A DNA stretch of 24,775 nt, from positions 1-24,775 of the IMG/VR virus record IMGVR_UViG_3300025070_000222; one strand, given 5' to 3'. This DNA comes from a virus. The notes under the pieces were generated by a model. It had not been told where the DNA came from. It searched no databases and worked only from the letters and a program-made list of their open reading frames with translations. The translations under genes and the position numbers were made by a program. Below, piece after piece: positions 11,020 through 24,775 of the stretch (positions are counted from its first letter, which is position 1; the number at the start of each line of letters is the position of its first letter).

Positions 11020-12661
11020 GTTTACTGAACATCCCCTTCTGACTCCTCCTACAGCAGAGGAAATTGTCTGGCTGTACGAGAACGACCTTAATCTTCTTAA
11101 AGAGCTGCACAAGGCTCATGAGAGCAGGATTAAGGCATCTGAGGACGATCCTATCCGTCATGGGTTTAATCTACCTGGATGGGAGCGAATAAAGGATGGG
11201 TTGCAGGATTACAATGAGTGCTTGGTTCTTGGTGGTAACAGATCAGGAAAGACTACAGGATTTGCTAAGATCGTAATGGAAGCAGTGACTGAAAGCAATG
11301 ATGGTCACTTAGTATGCTTTTCCCAGAACGAAGATACTTCCATTAAGGTGCAGCAAGCAGCTATATGGGAGATGATGCCTAAGGAGTTCAAGAAGAAGAC
11401 TAAGAGCATCGAGGGGTACATTAATTACAGTATGCAGAACGGGTTCACTGCTAAGAGCTTTATCTTTCCTGATACCCGTACCCGTGTAGACTTCAAGACG
11501 TACACGCAGTACAGCAACAACCAGACTATCTTAGAGGGCTTTGAGTTCGGTTTTCCTGATGCTAAGGGCTTGAACATAGGTGCGTGGTTAGATGAGTACC
11601 TAGGCGATGCTTCATTAGTAAATACCCTTAGGTTCCGACTGGCTACTAGGGACGCCAAGATGGGTATAGGCTTCACTCCTATTGATGGTTATACTCCCTT
11701 TGTGGCAGAGTACTTAAAGGACGTAGAGACGCTACAGACACGTCATGGTGCATTGATAGATAAGGAAGTGCCTATTAAGCAGTACAGCCCATCTAGAGAC
11801 GCATCAGTGGTGTACTTGCACTCAGATGAGAATCCCTTTGGTGGTTATGAGCGTATAGCTAAAGACCTTAGAGGCAGACCAGAAGAAGAGATACTAGTTC
11901 GTGCTTACGGGATACCCGTTAAGAGCATGACTTCTTTGTTGCCCTTGTTTAACACTGAGGTGAACGTATTGAGTGACGAGCCAAATAAGTACGGCATGAC
12001 CTTTCCTGACATATCTGATCAGCACAGGTACACTTGTTATCAGGTAGTTGACCCAGCAGGAGCCAGGAATTATGTAGCGATATGGGCAGGAGTAAACGAA
12101 AAGGGAGATGTGTACATTCGGAAGGAGTGGCCTGATAGGGACTACTACGGAGAGTGGGCTGTATTCGGTGATCCTAAGTGGCGTTATGGGCCAGCATCAA
12201 AGAAGATAGGTTACAACGTACAGGGATACGTTGATCTGTTTGAGGAAATAGAGGATGACATTGAGATAGAGGTATTTGAGCGTATAGGTGACAGTAGGTA
12301 CTTCGCTAAGGAGAACTCCGACAATGATGACCTGTTTACTGAGTTCGATGATTGCGGAATGACTTTTATTCCGTCCGATGGGAGAATGGAAGAGATAGGC
12401 ATTAGTGCTATAGATGAGTGGTTCAGCTACAACCCTAACGTGCCAATAGATTCTGCTAACAGACCACGGTGCTACATACATGAGGACTGCGGTAACCTTA
12501 TAGACTCTTTAATTAACTACAACGCTTCAGGCAAGGCTGATGAGCCGTTAAAGGACTTCTTTGACATTATTCGTTATTTGCGAATGGCGAATGGAGGCGA
12601 TGGCCCTGACCACGTTCTTTCCAGAAACATGATGACAACCCGCATAGGATCAGGATATTAG
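11015..12661 (+). CDS. Terminase large subunit (TerL)
   Basis: TerL is the ATP-driven DNA packaging motor and nuclease that docks on the portal. Numbering from 11015 (548 aa), the ATPase domain has Walker A GGNRSGKT at 73-80 and Walker B with the catalytic Glu, WLDEYL, at 191-196. The RNase H-like nuclease domain starts around VVDPAG (Asp 346) and ends with an FFDIIRYL segment (Asp about 517). The start is odd: the frame is open from 11003, and the segment before Walker A (LTPPTAEEIVWLYENDL, HGFNLPGWERI) looks like a genuine TerL N-terminus, yet the first ATG/GTG/TTG is the TTG at 11201, only ten codons before Walker A. I propose ATT 11015, which overlaps the previous stop; CTG 11039 is an alternative. 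Confidence 0.9.
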   Translation: MKFTEHPLLTPPTAEEIVWLYENDLNLLKELHKAHESRIKASEDDPIRHGFNLPGWERIKDGLQDYNECLVLGGNRSGKTTGFAKIVMEAVTESNDGHLVCFSQNEDTSIKVQQAAIWEMMPKEFKKKTKSIEGYINYSMQNGFTAKSFIFPDTRTRVDFKTYTQYSNNQTILEGFEFGFPDAKGLNIGAWLDEYLGDASLVNTLRFRLATRDAKMGIGFTPIDGYTPFVAEYLKDVETLQTRHGALIDKEVPIKQYSPSRDASVVYLHSDENPFGGYERIAKDLRGRPEEEILVRAYGIPVKSMTSLLPLFNTEVNVLSDEPNKYGMTFPDISDQHRYTCYQVVDPAGARNYVAIWAGVNEKGDVYIRKEWPDRDYYGEWAVFGDPKWRYGPASKKIGYNVQGYVDLFEEIEDDIEIEVFERIGDSRYFAKENSDNDDLFTEFDDCGMTFIPSDGRMEEIGISAIDEWFSYNPNVPIDSANRPRCYIHEDCGNLIDSLINYNASGKADEPLKDFFDIIRYLRMANGGDGPDHVLSRNMMTTRIGSGY

Positions 12662-13228: not shown

Positions 13229-15308
13229 TTCAGTTTCAGAGTCACTAACCTACGTTAGTGCTGAACCAGACATCAAGTCCCTTCGGTACGCCTACGACCA
13301 ATCGGTAGTTGAGCTTGAGGCGTACTTTGATTTGTGCAGAGAGAGTTATGACGAGCGCCGTAATTGGTGGCCTGGAAAGAGCAGAGATCTTCGCAAGCAC
13401 GGTGCTGATGCTTTCCCCTGGGAGGGTGCATCTGACATGGAGAGCCATGTTATTGATGAGCGAATTACTAGGCTTGTATCCCTCTTTATGGCTTCTTTGT
13501 CTAGGGCTAATATTAGGGCTTTCCCAGTAGAGGTTCAGGATGTAGGCAGAGCTAAGGTAGTTTCTAACTTCCTTAAGTGGATGATTTCCTCTGGTTACAT
13601 TTCTCGTTTTAATCGAGAGATGGAGCTAGGAGCTAATTACTTGCTAGAGCGTGGACTGCTTATAAGCTACGTAGGATGGCACTCAGAGGACAGGAAGTTC
13701 CTTCAGAGGCTAGACCTTAACCAGATAGCCCAAGTAAGTCCTGAGCTAGCTGAGATGATCCTTTCGGGTCAGAACGAAGACCAGATGGTGGCTATGCTGC
13801 AACAGACCTTTGATGGCGTTACAGTTAAGCGAGCTAAGAACGCACTGGCTGAACTAGCTGACGTTGGATCTGCTGAGTTGCCAGTTGTACGCCGTCAGGT
13901 AAATGCACCAGAGGTAAAGACGTTAGCCCCAGATGGGGACTTTATCTTCCCTCCGTATGTTACCGATCCACAGCGAGCACCTTACTGCTTCTGGAAAACG
14001 TACTACACAGCACAGGAGCTAGAAAACAAAGTAGCTACTGATGGATGGGACGAAGACTTCGTTGAGTTAGTTATAGAGCGATACCGTGGAGTTAATATAG
14101 ACTCTATCGAGCGTGAGCAGGAGGGCCGTCGGTCATTAAGCCTTACCGATAATGCTTACGAGGCTGAAGAGCTAATAGAAATAGTTTATGGATTTCAACG
14201 TTTAGTTGATAAGGAGGACGGCTCTGAAGGGATATACTGCACAGTATTCCACAAGGAGTTCAGTGGTGATGGTGACACTCCTGGGTTCGCAAAGTTCGAG
14301 TTGCTTAATGGCTACGAGGATTACCCAGTAGTAGTTACTAAGCTATCTGAAGACAGCAAGCGACTGTACGACACGATGACTGTCCCAAGTCTACTCAAAG
14401 GAATACAGCAACAAGTCAAGATAGAACGTGATAGCCGTATCGACAGGAATAGCCTTGCCACCGTCCCTCCAATTTTACACCCAGTAGGACAGGCTCCTAC
14501 GGACTGGGGGCCAGGAAGGTACGTTCCTTATCGTCGTAAAGGCGATATAGATTTTGGGCCTACGCCTCCTTACAACCAGGGCTCACTTGAGATGGAGAAG
14601 ACAATGGAGCAGCAAGCAGATAGACTTGTTGGTTTAGATGAAGTATCTCCAATCTCACAGATTAGAAAGCAGTTCTTGGTAGATAAGTTCCTTAGCCATT
14701 CCGCTGAGGTTATATCGCAGTGCTACCGTTGCTTTCAGAGATTCGGCCCTGACCAGATATTCTTTAGGGTTACTGGTGTACCTGATCCGCAGATGTTTAA
14801 CAAGGGGAACGCTGATGAGAACTTCGATGTTACAATTAGTTACGATGTTCTGAACACAGACCCAGAGAAACAGGAAAATAAGCTAAATCAAATGGTTTCC
14901 CTTCTACAGCTAGATCGCAACGGAAGGATAAATGTAGATAACTTGCTAACATTGATAGCAGGTTCAGTTGATCCAGTGCTTGCTGATGGTGTTCTTGAAC
15001 CCGTTGAGGTTGCACAGGAAAAACTACTTAAAGATATTACAGATGACTTATCTAAAATTTATGCAGGTATCGAAGTTCCAGCGCGTCCAAGCGGTGCTCA
15101 AGCGGCTTTACAAGTTATTCAGCAGTACAGTCAACAGCAAGACATTCAGCAACGTTTACAAGAAGATGAAGCTTTTGCTGCTCGTCTTCAGAAGTACGCT
15201 GGACAATATCAGTTCGCTGTACAGCAAGCACAGAACGCGCAAATAGGTAGGATTGGAACGCAACCAGCACAGATGGGTAGTACTCAAACCCAGAATATGC
15301 AGCAGTGA
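13218..15308 (+). CDS. Portal protein
   Basis: The 696-residue protein is the portal, the dodecameric ring at the capsid vertex through which DNA enters and the tail attaches. Support comes from size, position directly after TerL, and the N-terminal segment with RRNWWPGK and AFPWEGASD (65-73), a pattern I know from podovirus portals. The middle is a mixed alpha/beta wing and clip region; residues 480-540 include VDKFLSHSAEVISQCYRCFQ, likely crown or stem helices. The last 90 residues are helical and Gln-rich (QQYSQQQDIQQ, ending QNMQQ), compatible with a C-terminal barrel like that of P22-type portals. It overlaps the next gene by 4 nt. The barrel assignment is inference; the portal call is secure. 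Confidence 0.9.
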   Translation: MQSDSVSESLTYVSAEPDIKSLRYAYDQSVVELEAYFDLCRESYDERRNWWPGKSRDLRKHGADAFPWEGASDMESHVIDERITRLVSLFMASLSRANIRAFPVEVQDVGRAKVVSNFLKWMISSGYISRFNREMELGANYLLERGLLISYVGWHSEDRKFLQRLDLNQIAQVSPELAEMILSGQNEDQMVAMLQQTFDGVTVKRAKNALAELADVGSAELPVVRRQVNAPEVKTLAPDGDFIFPPYVTDPQRAPYCFWKTYYTAQELENKVATDGWDEDFVELVIERYRGVNIDSIEREQEGRRSLSLTDNAYEAEELIEIVYGFQRLVDKEDGSEGIYCTVFHKEFSGDGDTPGFAKFELLNGYEDYPVVVTKLSEDSKRLYDTMTVPSLLKGIQQQVKIERDSRIDRNSLATVPPILHPVGQAPTDWGPGRYVPYRRKGDIDFGPTPPYNQGSLEMEKTMEQQADRLVGLDEVSPISQIRKQFLVDKFLSHSAEVISQCYRCFQRFGPDQIFFRVTGVPDPQMFNKGNADENFDVTISYDVLNTDPEKQENKLNQMVSLLQLDRNGRINVDNLLTLIAGSVDPVLADGVLEPVEVAQEKLLKDITDDLSKIYAGIEVPARPSGAQAALQVIQQYSQQQDIQQRLQEDEAFAARLQKYAGQYQFAVQQAQNAQIGRIGTQPAQMGSTQTQNMQQ

Positions 15309-15940
15309 TAGCTCTGATATTTATTTCTATACTGTTTATTAATATGCCCGACAACAGGATTAACCAGTTAATGCGAGAGAAGTACAACTCTCTTCGCCCA
15401 AGGGAGAACCCTCCAGCCAATCAAGATAGTTATGCTTTTGCTCGTAAGAGAGCAAGGGACAAACATAATCAAGAAATATACGAACAACTTTCTTTGCATG
15501 AAGGAGTAGAGCCTAGCGTGTACACAGACACTAAGGGCAAGCGTACTATAGGCATAGGGTTTAATTTAGACGAACCCTCTAACCGAAAGAAAGCAGAATC
15601 ATTGGGACTTAACGTACAGGATATGCTTTCTGGGAAGAAAACTCTTTCTGATAAAGAAATAAAATTGCTGTACAATGAGTCCATTAAGCAAGCTGCTGAT
15701 GACGCTAATGCTTTCTTGCCTCAAGCTGGAAGACAGCCAGCAGTTGTTCAAAAAGTTTTAATAGACATGGCGTTTAATCTTGGCAGGACTAAGCTTAATA
15801 AATTTGAAAATATGCGAGCAGCACTTTTAGAGGGTGATTACAATAAAGCTGCTGACGAAATGATAGACAGCAATTGGTACAATCAGGTGGGGAATAGATC
15901 TAAAAGACTAGTAGAAATGATGCGATCCGCAGCACGATGA
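15305..15940 (+). CDS. T4-type lysozyme (GH24 muramidase)
   Basis: This muramidase cleaves the glycan chains of peptidoglycan. The T4 lysozyme triad is present with exact spacing: Glu66 in LHEGVEP, Asp75 in YTDTKG and Thr81 in RTIGIGF, matching Glu11, Asp20 and Thr26 of T4. The conserved AFNLG follows at about residues 155-159. The 60 residues before the catalytic Glu are longer than in T4 lysozyme and are basic. Starting at the GTG (15305, GTGA overlap with the portal stop) adds a short hydrophobic stretch IALIFISILFI; starting at the ATG at 15344 removes it. Location between portal and scaffold, away from the holins, suggests either an endolysin or a virion-carried lysozyme used at entry. 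Confidence 0.9.
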   Translation: MIALIFISILFINMPDNRINQLMREKYNSLRPRENPPANQDSYAFARKRARDKHNQEIYEQLSLHEGVEPSVYTDTKGKRTIGIGFNLDEPSNRKKAESLGLNVQDMLSGKKTLSDKEIKLLYNESIKQAADDANAFLPQAGRQPAVVQKVLIDMAFNLGRTKLNKFENMRAALLEGDYNKAADEMIDSNWYNQVGNRSKRLVEMMRSAAR

Positions 15941-17290: not shown

Positions 17291-18289
17291 ATGGCATTCT
17301 CAAACACATACGATACAAGTAATCCTGGTTCTGGTGTTTCCAATCGCGAAGACTTGACTGACGTCTTGACTATTCTCGCTCCTGAAGAAACTCCAGTCCT
17401 TTCCTCTGCTTCTAAGCAGAAAGCATCCGCAACGTTCGTTGAGTGGACTGTAGACGCATTGTCTGCTCCTTCAACTACTGGCATCCGTGAAGGTGCTGAT
17501 GTTGGAACTTTCACTGACCAGTTCAGTGGACGTGCTCGTCTTGGTAACTACATCCAAAAGTTCCGTCGCGACTTTCAGGTTTCTGATCTTCAGGAAGCTG
17601 TTGAAAGCGTTGGACCTGCTAAGATTGCTCAAGCTGAAGCAAAAGCAATTCGTGAACTAAAGCGTGACATCGAAGCTACCCTCTGTGGTACGCAAGATCG
17701 CGCTGCTGAAAACGGATCTGACACAGCTTACGCTTTGCGTGGTCTTGGTGACTGGATCGACTCCGCTGGTCCTTCTGATGTTCCTGCTGCATTCCGTACT
17801 CCTGCTTCCAGCATTCATGCTGCTGATGAAGGTGCTTTCACGGAAACAGTTCTGAACAACTTGATTACCTCAATCTTCCGCGAAACTGGAACAAGCAACA
17901 ACCTAACGATGGTTGCTGACACGGCTGTTCGTCGCATTATCTCTGACTTCGCTCGCACTGCTGGCGTAAGCGGAACCGATGCAGACAGCGTTCGTACCGT
18001 TAATTACAACGGTGACTCAGCTCAGATCAAACTTAGTGTTGAGTTCTATCAGTCCGATCACGGCATGATTTCGATTGTTAATGGCAATCCTGATTGTATG
18101 CCCGATACGACTAATAAGGACGTTGCTTACTTGGTTAATCCTGAGTACTACGGCATCCATGAGCTGATTCCAATGGGATCGACTCGCCTCCCGAATCAGG
18201 GTGGTGGTGAGCGTGGTTACGTTGATTGCTCCTTGACCCTCGGTGTTTATCACCCACAGGCTCACGGTAAGATCGAAGAAGTTGCGTAA
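17291..18289 (+). CDS. Major capsid protein, DUF5309/SU10-like HK97 fold
   Basis: The 332-residue protein forms the capsid shell. The N-terminus (NREDLTDVLTILAPEETPVL, then TFVEWTVDAL) and the central block with FRRDFQVSDLQEAV match the DUF5309 or SU10 major capsid family, a variant of the HK97 fold. The C-terminal part contains a strand-rich region with YYGIHELIPMG, as expected for the P-domain and A-domain strands. It lies right after the scaffold gene and is followed by a strong terminator, which would give high production of this transcript. Codon use is biased toward codons typical of highly expressed genes (for example GGT and CGT), unlike neighbours. No protease gene is seen nearby. 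Confidence 0.92.
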   Translation: MAFSNTYDTSNPGSGVSNREDLTDVLTILAPEETPVLSSASKQKASATFVEWTVDALSAPSTTGIREGADVGTFTDQFSGRARLGNYIQKFRRDFQVSDLQEAVESVGPAKIAQAEAKAIRELKRDIEATLCGTQDRAAENGSDTAYALRGLGDWIDSAGPSDVPAAFRTPASSIHAADEGAFTETVLNNLITSIFRETGTSNNLTMVADTAVRRIISDFARTAGVSGTDADSVRTVNYNGDSAQIKLSVEFYQSDHGMISIVNGNPDCMPDTTNKDVAYLVNPEYYGIHELIPMGSTRLPNQGGGERGYVDCSLTLGVYHPQAHGKIEEVA

Positions 18290-20504: not shown

Positions 20505-21605
20505 ATGGCAACTTACTACGTAGATCCACTTAGCGGAAGCGATGCAGCAGCAGGAACTTCATTTGGTACCGCTTGGGCAACAACTCAAAAAGCAGCCGAT
20601 ACTGCTGTAGCTGGCGACGAGGTTCGGCTTTGCGCAACCGCCACCGAAACTCCTGCTGCTCAAATAGATTGGGACACCAATGCTGGAACCAAAACGTCTC
20701 TTATTAACTTTGTTGGAGCGGATGCAACTGGAACGCCCTTAACAACTGGTTATTATACTATATCTGGCTCCTCACTTCCATCTACTACTAGTTTGTTTTA
20801 TTGGGCAACTTCTGCTTCTCAATATGTTCGGTTTAAACGTATTAGACTAACTGGAGCAACTGATCACAATGTAAAATTTAACTCATCTGCATCAAATTTT
20901 TCAACATTCTTGATCTTTGACACGTGCCGAATTGATTCAGCAACTAATGATGGCGTTCAACAAGGGTACTCGCAATTTAATTATTTTTTAAATTGCGAAA
21001 TAGATGGCAATGGAGGATCTGGGTTTGGAATACCTGCCGATTATTTAGTAACCAAATCTGGGTATTTAAGGCTTGTAGGAGTATCAGTTCATAACAACGG
21101 AGACACTGGCGTTGATATTGTTTACCGAGGCAATTATATAAATAATTGTTTAATTTACAGTAATGGATCTTCTGGAATTAAATTAGGAAGGGAGTTTGAC
21201 CAATCTATAATTTCCAATAATACATTTTACGGAAACACGGGTAGTGGCATTGGAGATGCTGGAAGTGCGCTTACAGGAACTTTAGACGGAATCATAACGG
21301 GAAATTCTTTTGTTTCAAATGGTCTTTATGGCTTGGAAGATAACCGTGGTGGCAATGTTACAGCTTACATTGATTACAACCACTATCACAATAATACAAG
21401 TGGGGAGACTGACTTTTCAGGAGGAACTCCTGGAGATAAAAATCAATCTGGTGATCCTTTATTTACTTCTACAACCAGTGGAAGCGAGGACTTTACTCCA
21501 ACTTCTGGATCGCCACTTATTCGTACTTATGTAAATGAAGGAAATATAGGTGCTGTTGCTAATACCTCTGCTGGTAGTGGAACTGCTCATACTTTTGCTT
21601 GTTAA
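20505..21605 (+). CDS. Right-handed beta-helix tailspike-like protein
   Basis: The 366-residue protein begins with YYVDPLSGSD and TAWATTQKAADTAVAGDEV, the standard opening of parallel beta-helix proteins of the pectate-lyase and tailspike type. The following 250 residues show repeating short strands and Asn/Gly turns, such as NNCLIYSNGSSGIKL and SNNTFYGNTGSGI, the pattern of successive helix coils. Phage proteins of this type form trimers and often cut surface polysaccharides. The C-terminus (FTPTSGSPLI) resembles the final coil. I see no unequivocal catalytic residues. It overlaps the next ORF's long reading by a few bases and likely works with it at the tail tip. Confidence 0.8.
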   Translation: MATYYVDPLSGSDAAAGTSFGTAWATTQKAADTAVAGDEVRLCATATETPAAQIDWDTNAGTKTSLINFVGADATGTPLTTGYYTISGSSLPSTTSLFYWATSASQYVRFKRIRLTGATDHNVKFNSSASNFSTFLIFDTCRIDSATNDGVQQGYSQFNYFLNCEIDGNGGSGFGIPADYLVTKSGYLRLVGVSVHNNGDTGVDIVYRGNYINNCLIYSNGSSGIKLGREFDQSIISNNTFYGNTGSGIGDAGSALTGTLDGIITGNSFVSNGLYGLEDNRGGNVTAYIDYNHYHNNTSGETDFSGGTPGDKNQSGDPLFTSTTSGSEDFTPTSGSPLIRTYVNEGNIGAVANTSAGSGTAHTFAC

Positions 21606-23257: not shown

Positions 23258-23337
23258 TGACAGTAATACTATCACTAGCAGCATTTCTGGTATTGGCCTA
23301 CGTTATAGCTGAAACACTAGAACGCTTACGCAAATAA
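23257..23337 (+). CDS. Tiny single-span membrane protein (26 aa)
   Basis: A 26-residue ORF starts at the ATG overlapping the previous TAA and ends in a TAA that overlaps the next ATG. Residues 3-19 (VILSLAAFLVLAYVIAE) form one hydrophobic span, followed by a basic tail ERLRK, so the predicted topology is tail inside the cell. Position directly upstream of the holin-like gene suggests a lysis accessory such as a small holin or antiholin. Short length makes the call tentative, but double TAATG coupling and ideal transmembrane composition support it. Confidence 0.6.
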   Translation: MTVILSLAAFLVLAYVIAETLERLRK

Positions 23338-23801
23338 TGGACTGGATTCAAGCACTAACTAACGCAGGGACTGGTGGCATTCTTGGGATTGTCGGCTCCG
23401 TTGCGTCTGGCTGGCTAAAAATTAAGGGCATGAAGGCTCAGGCCGAGATTGAGAGGGAGATGGTAAAGCTCCAGATCGACAAGGGCACCATTGAGGCTGA
23501 CAGTGCAGACTTCCAAGCTTCACAGAAAGCTGCCCAGCACGAGAGCGATGCGTTAATATCCGTAGCTAACATAGCAGAGAAGCCTTGGCAAAAGGGTCTG
23601 TTGATATGGCACTTTGTGTTTAAAGGATCTGTCCGTCCATTGCTTGCCGTGGGCGTACACATGTTAGCTGGTATCTTATACTTTCAGATGCCTGAGCAGT
23701 ACCAAGACATTATTCTCCAGCAAATATTTACAATAGCATTCGCATATGGTGGGTGGTATTTTGGACAACGGGATTTAAACAAGAGATTATTTTCAGAATG
23801 A
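23337..23801 (+). CDS. Holin-like protein (3-TM, gene-transfer-agent holin type)
   Basis: The 154-residue protein resembles the family of three-span holins first described for gene transfer agent release. Holins form pores in the inner membrane so that the lysozyme can reach the cell wall. Visible features are a first hydrophobic segment at about 12-27, a long charged amphipathic helix (28-80; KAQAEIEREMVKLQIDKG), and two more spans at about 101-117 (PLLAVGVHMLAGILYF) and 126-143 (ILQQIFTIAFAYGGWYFG). The WQKGLLIWHF and SVRP segments before span two fit what I recall of the family. It is flanked by two more membrane proteins and coupled to both by overlaps. Confidence 0.8.
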   Translation: MDWIQALTNAGTGGILGIVGSVASGWLKIKGMKAQAEIEREMVKLQIDKGTIEADSADFQASQKAAQHESDALISVANIAEKPWQKGLLIWHFVFKGSVRPLLAVGVHMLAGILYFQMPEQYQDIILQQIFTIAFAYGGWYFGQRDLNKRLFSE

Positions 23802-24019
23802 ACTTACCAGAAGCAGCACATGAATCTTTTTTAAAGGGATTTGGTTTTTCCTTTGGCGGTTTATTGGCTGCAACAGGCACTATGGTAGACAAACTAGCTG
23901 AACTAAACACCGTGCTGTCAATGGTTGGCGGCGTACTTAGTATCGTTTCTACTGGTCTTGGAATTTATTTTGTTACACTTGGAATTAAAATTAGGAAAAA
24001 AGAAACGGAGGATAAATAA
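23798..24019 (+). CDS. Small two-span membrane protein, probable lysis accessory (73 aa)
   Basis: Started at the ATG at 23798 (4-nt ATGA overlap with the holin gene) the product has 73 residues; an earlier TTG at 23753 is possible but less likely. Two hydrophobic regions, about 14-30 (GFGFSFGGLLAATGTMV) and 38-63 (TVLSMVGGVLSIVSTGLGIYFV...), are followed by a highly charged C-terminus KIRKKETEDK. This is the shape of a small class II holin or antiholin. It forms, with the 26-residue and 154-residue proteins, a three-gene membrane cassette. The precise role in lysis timing is not visible. Confidence 0.65.
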   Translation: MNLPEAAHESFLKGFGFSFGGLLAATGTMVDKLAELNTVLSMVGGVLSIVSTGLGIYFVTLGIKIRKKETEDK

Positions 24020-24082
24020 ATGGCTTACGGAACAAGAAGACCAAAAGGGTACGGAAACAAGGGCAAAGGCAGAAAGAAATAG
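24020..24082 (+). CDS. Tiny basic protein (20 aa)
   Basis: A 20-residue ORF (MAYGTRRPKGYGNKGKGRKK) begins directly after the previous stop (TAAATG) and ends 2 bp before the next ATG. Nearly half of its residues are Lys or Arg, with Gly and Tyr, and no acidic residue occurs. The order of basic miniproteins after it and the exact packing argue that it is a real gene. It is the first of four consecutive basic genes that may bind nucleic acid. Unrecognised. Confidence 0.5.
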   Translation: MAYGTRRPKGYGNKGKGRKK

Positions 24083-24084
24083 AT

Positions 24085-24216
24085 ATGCCCAAAGACGCTT
24101 GTTACAGAAAAGTTAAGGCACGGTACAAAGTGTTCCCATCTGCGTACGCAAGTGGGGCGATAGCCAAGTGTCGCAAGGTAGGTGCTTCTAACTGGGGCAA
24201 GCGTAAGAAGAAGTAA
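24085..24216 (+). CDS. Conserved basic miniprotein with two Cys (43 aa)
   Basis: This 43-residue protein begins MPKDACYRKVKARYKVFPSA and continues with CRKVGASNWGKRKKK. It has 14 Lys/Arg and two Cys (residues 6 and 29). The pattern KDACYxKVKxRY, PSAYASGA and CRKxGAxNWG is one I recall from many marine phages, where it remains hypothetical. It is not seen in the usual model phages. Its TAA overlaps the next ATG (TAATG). A DNA-condensing or virion-internal function is possible given the charge, without direct evidence. Confidence 0.8.
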   Translation: MPKDACYRKVKARYKVFPSAYASGAIAKCRKVGASNWGKRKKK

Positions 24217-24494
24217 TGTCTGTACGGAGGACAAAGGAGGGTGCTGCTCTTAAGCGGTGGTTCAAGGAGAAGTGGGTAGATGTACGCACTGGTAAGCCTT
24301 GTGGTCGCCGTAAAGGAGAAAAGAGGGGTACACCCTACTGTCGCCCATCTAAGCGTGTCAGCAGCCGTACACCAGTTACATCAGGTGAAATGACTCCATC
24401 ACAGAAACGATCAAGGATAGCCCAGAAGAAAAGACTGGGACAACCAGCAGGTAAACCAAGAAGAGTAAAGGCGGTAAAGCGTGGCAATAAATAA
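24216..24494 (+). CDS. Conserved basic protein, RxTxEGAALKRWFKEKW type (92 aa)
   Basis: The 92-residue protein begins MSVRRTKEGAALKRWFKEKW and contains VRTGKPCGRRKGEKRGTPYC (two Cys) followed by RPSKRVSSRTP and a highly basic C-terminus. About one third of residues are Lys or Arg (31 of 92). The N-terminal block and the PCGR/PYCRPSKRVSS element are recurrent in small proteins of marine phages and some large DNA viruses, from memory, with no known activity. It follows the 43-residue gene by TAATG coupling. The two CxxxxxxxxxxxxC-spaced Cys could coordinate a metal, but pairing is not evident. Confidence 0.8.
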   Translation: MSVRRTKEGAALKRWFKEKWVDVRTGKPCGRRKGEKRGTPYCRPSKRVSSRTPVTSGEMTPSQKRSRIAQKKRLGQPAGKPRRVKAVKRGNK

Positions 24495-24501
24495 GAAAAA
24501 C

Positions 24502-24729
24502 ATGAAGTGTAACGTTCCGCGAAGACAAGTGTCTGGTGGGAAGAAGTTCGTTGTGAAAGCTTGTCAGGGTGGCAAGGAAAAGATAGTACGCTTTGGAGAT
24601 GCTAACATGAGCATCAAGAAAAGTAACCCTGCACGTAAAAAAAGTTACTGTGCTAGGTCAGGTGGAATCAAGGGTAAGAGTAATAAACTGTCTGCAAACT
24701 ACTGGAGCAGAAGAGCTTGGAATTGTTAA
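24502..24729 (+). CDS. Conserved basic protein, KCNxPRR type (75 aa)
   Basis: The 75-residue product starts MKCNVPRRQVSGGKKFVVKA and continues with CQGGKEKIVRFGD, an SNPARKKSYCARSGGI segment and a C-terminal SANYWSRRAWNC. I chose the ATG at 24502 because related proteins I recall start with MKCN-PRR; a GTG at 24481 would add seven residues and overlap the previous gene by 14 nt. It contains four Cys (3, 20, 50, 75) and many Lys/Arg. The combination of KACxxGKEKxxRFG and xANYW is a recurrent small-protein pattern in marine phages with unknown role. Fourth member of the basic cassette. Confidence 0.8.
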   Translation: MKCNVPRRQVSGGKKFVVKACQGGKEKIVRFGDANMSIKKSNPARKKSYCARSGGIKGKSNKLSANYWSRRAWNC

Positions 24730-24775
24730 ATGGCAAGATATAGTTCATACGGTAATTTAGATAACCGAATAGCAG
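24730..24775 (+). CDS. Start of a further gene cut by the window edge
   Basis: An ATG at 24730 follows the previous stop directly (TAAATG). The 15 visible residues read MARYSSYGNLDNRIA. Openings of the type MARxSSYGNL occur in large tail or structural proteins of podovirus-like marine phages as I recall them, so the operon probably continues with virion genes. Nothing more can be said from the remaining 46 bases. Confidence 0.55.
   Translation, partial: MARYSSYGNLDNRIA

Follow-up and report, generated by a model that had tools for sequence, protein, structure and literature searches.

The stretch of DNA that we analyzed, hereafter the window, is a linear IMG/VR record of 24,775 bases whose minus strand carries replication genes, including that of a Dda-like helicase, and whose plus strand carries a late block of virion genes, in which a portal-sized protein, a lysozyme, and later virion genes accompany the terminase and major head genes. 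At the end of that block lies a cassette of four small genes, which are given here in map order together with the landmarks and neighbors to which we refer below.

11201–12661, plus strand: terminase large subunit, in the late block.
17291–18289, plus strand: major head protein (phrog_1328, E=7e-61).
23337–23801, plus strand: 154-aa gene of unknown function (phrog_6637), upstream of the cassette.
23801–24019, plus strand: holin-like hydrophobic gene, 72 aa, directly upstream of the cassette, only weakly similar to phage holin in Pfam (E=0.15).
24020–24082, plus strand: 20-aa Gly/Lys/Arg ORF (MAYGTRRPKGYGNKGKGRKK), an optional member, with GGAGG just upstream.
24085–24216, plus strand: protein A, 43 aa, matching the N-terminal half of DUF5872; Cys pair C6/C29.
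24216–24494, plus strand: protein B, 92 aa, matching the C-terminal half of DUF5872; Cys pair C29/C42.
24481–24729, plus strand: protein C, 82 aa, GTG start, DUF5754/Tlr6F-like; Cys pairs C10/C28 and C57/C82.
24730–24775, plus strand: next gene, start only (contig end), whose full-length relatives match families of virion structural proteins and of head closure Hc3.

A relative of the 154-aa gene was also present upstream of the cassette in another locus (L010), and the gene downstream of the cassette in L091 matched phrog_3287 (E=1.1e-6) and phrog_578 (E=2.2e-5). Elsewhere in the window, a lysozyme-like gene at 15305–15940, between the portal-sized and the capsid genes, matches phrog_7 and phrog_2083 and may encode a virion lysozyme, since those matches are to endolysin and internal virion lysozyme families; and the 366-aa protein of 20505–21605, for which no PHROG match was found, would from its sequence have the look of a repetitive beta-helix surface or tail protein.

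The sequence-only reading had described four consecutive plus-strand ORFs, the first three with products of 20, 43, and 92 residues, joined by a 2-bp gap (between the 20-aa ORF and A) and a TAATG overlap (between A and B), which arrangement the coordinates bear out. The fourth ORF is likewise real, but its proposed 75-aa product, starting at ATG 24502 after a 7-bp gap, was given up in favor of one of 82 residues from GTG 24481, with which start B and C overlap by 14 nt. We moved the start because the extra N-terminal residues, MAINKKN, are conserved among relatives and because a start codon is kept at that position—GTG in the close relatives L010–L012, L014, L015, and L091–L093 and ATG in more distant ones. 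The same reading was right in that all four proteins are very basic (pI 10.5–11.9; net charge per residue +0.40 in the 20-aa ORF, +0.30 in A, +0.28 in B, and +0.24 in C), that three of them—A, B, and C—carry Cys, and that no acidic partner occurs within the cassette; furthermore, His is absent from all four, and Lys plus Arg make up 27–34% of A, B, and C. Similar Gly/Lys-rich ORFs of 20–24 aa lie upstream of A in L010–L014, not generally, and we therefore regard the 20-aa ORF as the least secure member of the cassette. The larger three ORFs are not chance occurrences, since all have homologs in isolated phages and PF19197 matches B at E=4.8e-15.

That match to PF19197, the Pfam model of DUF5872, scored 56.6 bits over model positions 49–111, above the gathering score of 27.5, and A aligned with positions 11–42 at 14.5 bits (E=0.053), below that cut-off. 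Because B thus corresponds to the C-terminal half and A to the N-terminal half, we take DUF5872 to be split in the window: judged from these alignments, A and B are its two halves, divided between two genes at the TAATG junction. The Pfam model describes one polypeptide, whereas the window holds two separate, overlapping ORFs (24085–24216 and 24216–24494). Strong matches of A were also obtained to phrog_727 (E=2.8e-17), phrog_38880, and phrog_3477; its homologs are found in 366 phage records, and within the GC119 protein of T4-like cyanophages (phrog_727) it forms an internal domain.

C covers nearly the whole of PF19058, the model of DUF5754 (positions 6–48 of 49; E=3.5e-4), yet at 21.0 bits against a gathering score of 27.4, which threshold the phage relatives L145 and L150 likewise failed to reach; its match to phrog_7595 had an E of 2.6e-13. 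On this similarity C is, even below the Pfam cut-off, related to DUF5754, which is the protein called "Tlr6F" in viruses and which like C is small and basic. The match of C to PF19846 (DUF6321) was restricted to residues 47–69, with 14.7 bits for a gathering score of 28.5, and C shares its C-terminal half with the DUF6321-type protein, here designated D (hhalign probability 93.6%, E=2e-7); A, B, and C were otherwise unrelated to one another in profile comparisons. Tlr6F is kept in nearly all Polinton-like viruses and also in virophages, in many giant viruses, and in some phages (PMC4642659; PMC12220804), its occurrence in some phages having already been recorded by Yutin in 2015, when it was reported to resemble no domain whose structure or function was known (PMC4642659); and both DUF5754 and DUF5872 are annotated in one algal virus genome (PMC12085832). 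DUF5872, DUF5754, and DUF6321 are already known as orphan families, and the statement of the sequence-only reading that patterns like those of the larger three proteins occur widely among marine phages and even in large DNA viruses, while lacking a known function, agrees with these family assignments, with the phage homologs, and with the algal-virus annotation. The papers that we found do not mention a linkage of Tlr6F to the DUF5872 halves.

Across 84,980 prokaryote species B occurred at only 15 loci (L250–L264), mostly on small marine MAG contigs; one Prochlorococcus single-cell assembly is among them, and these loci probably represent phage contigs that were binned together with their hosts. 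Since B is nearly confined to viral contigs, we set aside a host-derived role. A four-Cys subtype of B (WVDCKTGKPCGR...YPACRPTMAQC), distinct from the two-Cys type of the window and often with C upstream, was observed in L116, L117, L120, L123, L126, L143, L146, and L162; and in L151 (4600–4842) a variant A-like stretch (ADRCKRRADSAYGKKTSAYKSGAIVRCRQGKIWKKKK) ends a longer protein upstream of B and C.

IMG/VR was searched with B and with C, which searches returned at least 80 loci each, and profiles were then built from the matches. Among the matches listed, A lay within 1.8 kb and on the same strand in 47/47 testable B loci—those with at least 1.5 kb on both sides—and C or D was also present in 39 of the 47. 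The co-occurrence that the sequence-only reading had proposed to examine was thus found, with the 20-aa ORF limited to close relatives; and the cassette is a real module, whose three larger proteins recur together in hundreds of marine phages. Among the 41 testable C loci in the matches listed, B was nearby in 17, A only in 3, and neither in 21, so that C also lives alone. The recurrent gene orders among the matches listed were D-A-B (34), C-A-B (26), and A-B-C (13). With respect to isolates, CRP-2 has C-A-B upstream of the terminase; CRP-7 has a D-like protein, A, and B in that same position; and in P-SCSP2 the genes for an A-like protein, B, and D stand between those for the scaffold and the capsid.

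The domains are also found fused in T4-like phage contigs, in 10 B-A-D, 2 B-A-C (L206 and L217), and 50 A-D proteins, nearly all of the proteins so counted having been retrieved with the S-CREM2 protein. Thus, the GC119/phrog_727 protein of T4-like cyanophages, exemplified by Syn19_101 and S-CREM2 gp160, is a late gene product that holds A, a B-like domain, and often D; it differs from the window genes, which are separate, in being a fused multi-domain protein of about 300–700 aa, with linkers and the order B-A-D/C. In Syn19_101 the B-like domain, A, and D are in one protein, encoded between gp16 and gp17. As the sequence comparison indicates, C and D take each other's place in the cassettes as well as in the fused proteins; and because the domain order differs between the two, we consider the link between the domains to be functional rather than that of one continuous fold. 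When the two genes on each side of the module were surveyed in 44 non-redundant loci (147 genes), the most frequent families with a named function were head closure, terminase, virion structural protein, portal, amidase, major head, head-tail adaptor, tail, and holin.

Virion presence has been observed, among cassette-related proteins, for one fused relative in one phage. S-CREM2 gp160 (128342–129235 of its record), with a B-like domain at residues 136–175 and A at 254–295, is the ORF160 that was identified in the proteome of CsCl-purified S-CREM2 virions through 7 unique peptides and 13.1% coverage (PMC10665884), in a list that also includes enzymes, e.g., Cas9, for which reason the detection could be incidental. 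Between residues 19–44 of gp160 and a segment near the N terminus of the S-CREM2 major capsid protein the identity is 69% (E=8e-7), which resemblance, as a sequence feature, hints at the head. It extends over 26 residues and links gp160 (L168 4843–5736) with OR473000 118655–118732. A general capsid-targeting segment in the fusions was rejected, gp160 alone having it and 0/87 other long proteins checked; no second copy of the N-terminal segment of Syn19_101 was found in the Syn19 genome, and the C profile had no match in S-CREM2. Beside their B-like and A domains, gp160 and the protein of L001 7446–8609 contain a further two-Cys mini-domain (CWxGYEKKGxxKxFGKxYNxCVKK).

ICP1 carries the C domain at the C terminus of a protein that is related to the prohead protease XkdF (PF14550, E=7.5e-10) and whose gene lies between those of the large terminase and the major head protein; the C region of that protein also matches phrog_220, a minor head protein/DNA pilot family. 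In S-SM1, whose virions had been analyzed, the GC119 protein is labeled as hypothetical only; and the literature searched placed neither algal-virus Tlr6F nor the ICP1 fusion in a virion. A virion location of the cassette proteins is partly supported: of the earlier suggestion of a virion-internal, protamine-like role, the particle association stands for gp160, whereas the protamine-like character is not supported, A–C being modeled as folded.

The cysteines were aligned in all the distinct sequences (173 of A, 130 of B, 88 of C, and 96 of D). In A both members of the pair were present in 166 sequences, one in 6, and none in 1. All 130 B sequences had the inner pair, while the outer pair was complete in 21, missing in 109, and single in 0. 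The first pair of C was complete in 69, missing in 17, and single in 1, the second pair being located at either of two mutually exclusive positions, 57–82 or 62–77 (33 sequences at one and 50 at the other), which shift of +5/–5 fits an antiparallel helical hairpin, in view of the helices predicted at residues 50–60 and 72–80. In D the outer pair occurred in all 95 comparable sequences, and the inner one was complete in 16, missing in 75, and single in 0. Parsimony on trees built without the cysteine columns gave about 10 separate coupled changes. In a non-redundant subset the Cys counts were even in 29/29 A, 24/25 B, 21/22 C, and 10/12 D sequences, compared with 183/527 control small genes with any Cys, which control includes some spurious ORFs; in the full-length fusions the Cys number is not always even. 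This gain and loss in pairs across A–D suggests disulfides, the loss of two Cys with the domain kept favoring them over four-Cys zinc sites, so that metal binding appears the less likely role for these residues. A joint four-Cys zinc site across A and B was rejected, the A of CRP-2 having lost its Cys and its B having kept the pair.

AlphaFold2 modeled the A and B regions of the natural B-A-C fusion L206 with confidence (pLDDT ~86–94), A as three short helices. Since the C part of that model was poor (pLDDT ~45), the window C was modeled alone, with a mean pLDDT of 84.5 and a pTM of 0.70, as three strands followed by two helices (beta-beta-beta-alpha-alpha). Sequence searches of the PDB with A, B, and C returned nothing below E=0.7, and Foldseek plus VIA-align found no PDB fold match for them; the AP2 and integrase-arm rows for C were weak (E of 3.8 or worse) and were not taken as evidence. 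In the predicted-structure library phage relatives were returned where the entry is named, among the family members being a 132-aa DUF5872 phage protein of BFVD (A0A6J5LL39), with an alignment that spans 82 columns. No fold relative in these searches with A, B, and C supports DNA binding.

The reading that we favor, tentatively and with somewhat less than even confidence, is that the cassette represents a modular virion protein divided among separate genes and made up of folded, cationic mini-domains that contact DNA in the head and are stapled by disulfides. A (small helical), B (small alpha/beta), and C (a three-stranded sheet plus a helical hairpin) would be those mini-domains, with D/DUF6321 standing in for C in other phages. 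They would be produced late, with the head and head-tail genes, and would enter the head during assembly—each as a chain of its own here, joined into a single chain in T4-like cyanophages—there to rest, in a modest number of copies, on the inner surface of the capsid, the portal, or the packaged DNA, where their role would be to hold or organize the DNA end or nearby DNA, not to neutralize the whole genome. After release, the paired Cys would oxidize to disulfides, which bonds would staple the domains in the extracellular particle. What has been observed is the order of the genes, their co-occurrence, the fusions, the pairing of the Cys, and a B+A fusion in the virions of one phage; from these we infer the head-lumen location of the separate proteins, their contact with DNA, and the disulfides, and we think it probable that A, B, and C belong to the virus particle, touch its DNA, and are stapled by disulfides. 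Against this reading stand the hypothetical label of the S-SM1 protein, the enzymes in the S-CREM2 list, the confinement of the capsid-like segment to gp160, the uneven Cys numbers of some full-length fusions, and the 21 C loci that lack A and B.

The proteins might instead be packed in the head and injected with the DNA in order to act on the new host—by protecting the incoming DNA, blocking defence, or binding the host nucleoid—after the manner of the T4 internal head proteins (IPI–III), which are small basic proteins packed in the head and with which we draw a comparison of working only, no sequence relation having been found and no capsid-targeting peptide recognized in the window proteins. 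We consider this ejection unlikely: the presence of gp160 in S-CREM2 virions, the small size and basic character of the proteins, the variable third module (C or D), and the phage-specific spread of B all fit it, but a disulfide-type stapling would be lost in the cytoplasm, and the families are kept across very different hosts, DUF5754 and DUF5872 even in algal viruses, whereas host-takeover genes tend to be host-specific.

To about the same low degree we would credit late assembly or packaging factors that bind DNA, the terminase, the scaffold, or RNA and leave before the particle is finished. The terminase genes near the module in CRP-2, CRP-7, and Syn19, its place between the scaffold and capsid genes in P-SCSP2, the fusion to a prohead protease relative in ICP1, and the listing of cyanophage relatives without a virion annotation would all be in keeping with such factors; the gp160 of purified virions is not, and the paired Cys suggest a life outside the reducing cytoplasm.

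Quite improbable, in our estimation, is the bulk condensation of the packaged genome after the manner of protamines, which the sequence-only reading had put forward. High positive charge, late position, and the presence of Cys, which mammalian protamines also contain, speak for that possibility; protamines, however, are short, Arg-dominated, unfolded chains, whereas A–C, with their 27–34% of Lys plus Arg, are modeled as folded domains with conserved aromatic, Gly, and Cys positions. In addition, the four proteins together carry a charge of about +67, so that by our estimate a 40-kb genome would need hundreds of sets, and basic proteins are reported to contribute little to the neutralization of phage DNA, the capsid having little room for them (PMC3281028). 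That these are zinc-binding transcription or RNA-binding proteins of the infected cell, as the four-Cys forms of B and C might suggest, we regard as highly improbable: Cys come and go by twos in domains that are otherwise kept, the window B has two Cys only and lacks His, and no known zinc domain was matched in Pfam.

The favored reading of disulfide-stapled head mini-domains could be extended to dsDNA viruses at large, in which Tlr6F/DUF5754, DUF5872, and DUF6321 would be the chromatin-like virion proteins of a common DNA-organizing toolkit, which algal viruses and virophages would use as single domains and tailed phages as cassettes of genes or as fusions. We hold this extension to be rather doubtful; if true, it would mean that tailed phages manage their packaged DNA by more than cations alone. 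In the texts that we searched, the module, the B-A-C/B-A-D fusions, and the paired-Cys rule were not found described, and the wider literature may hold them. With Tlr6F, DUF5872, and DUF6321 linked in a single phage module, three families so far studied as orphans become one question that can be tested, which question is founded on a fused relative in purified virions and on a clear disulfide prediction and can be addressed in phages that grow in culture and yield purifiable virions.
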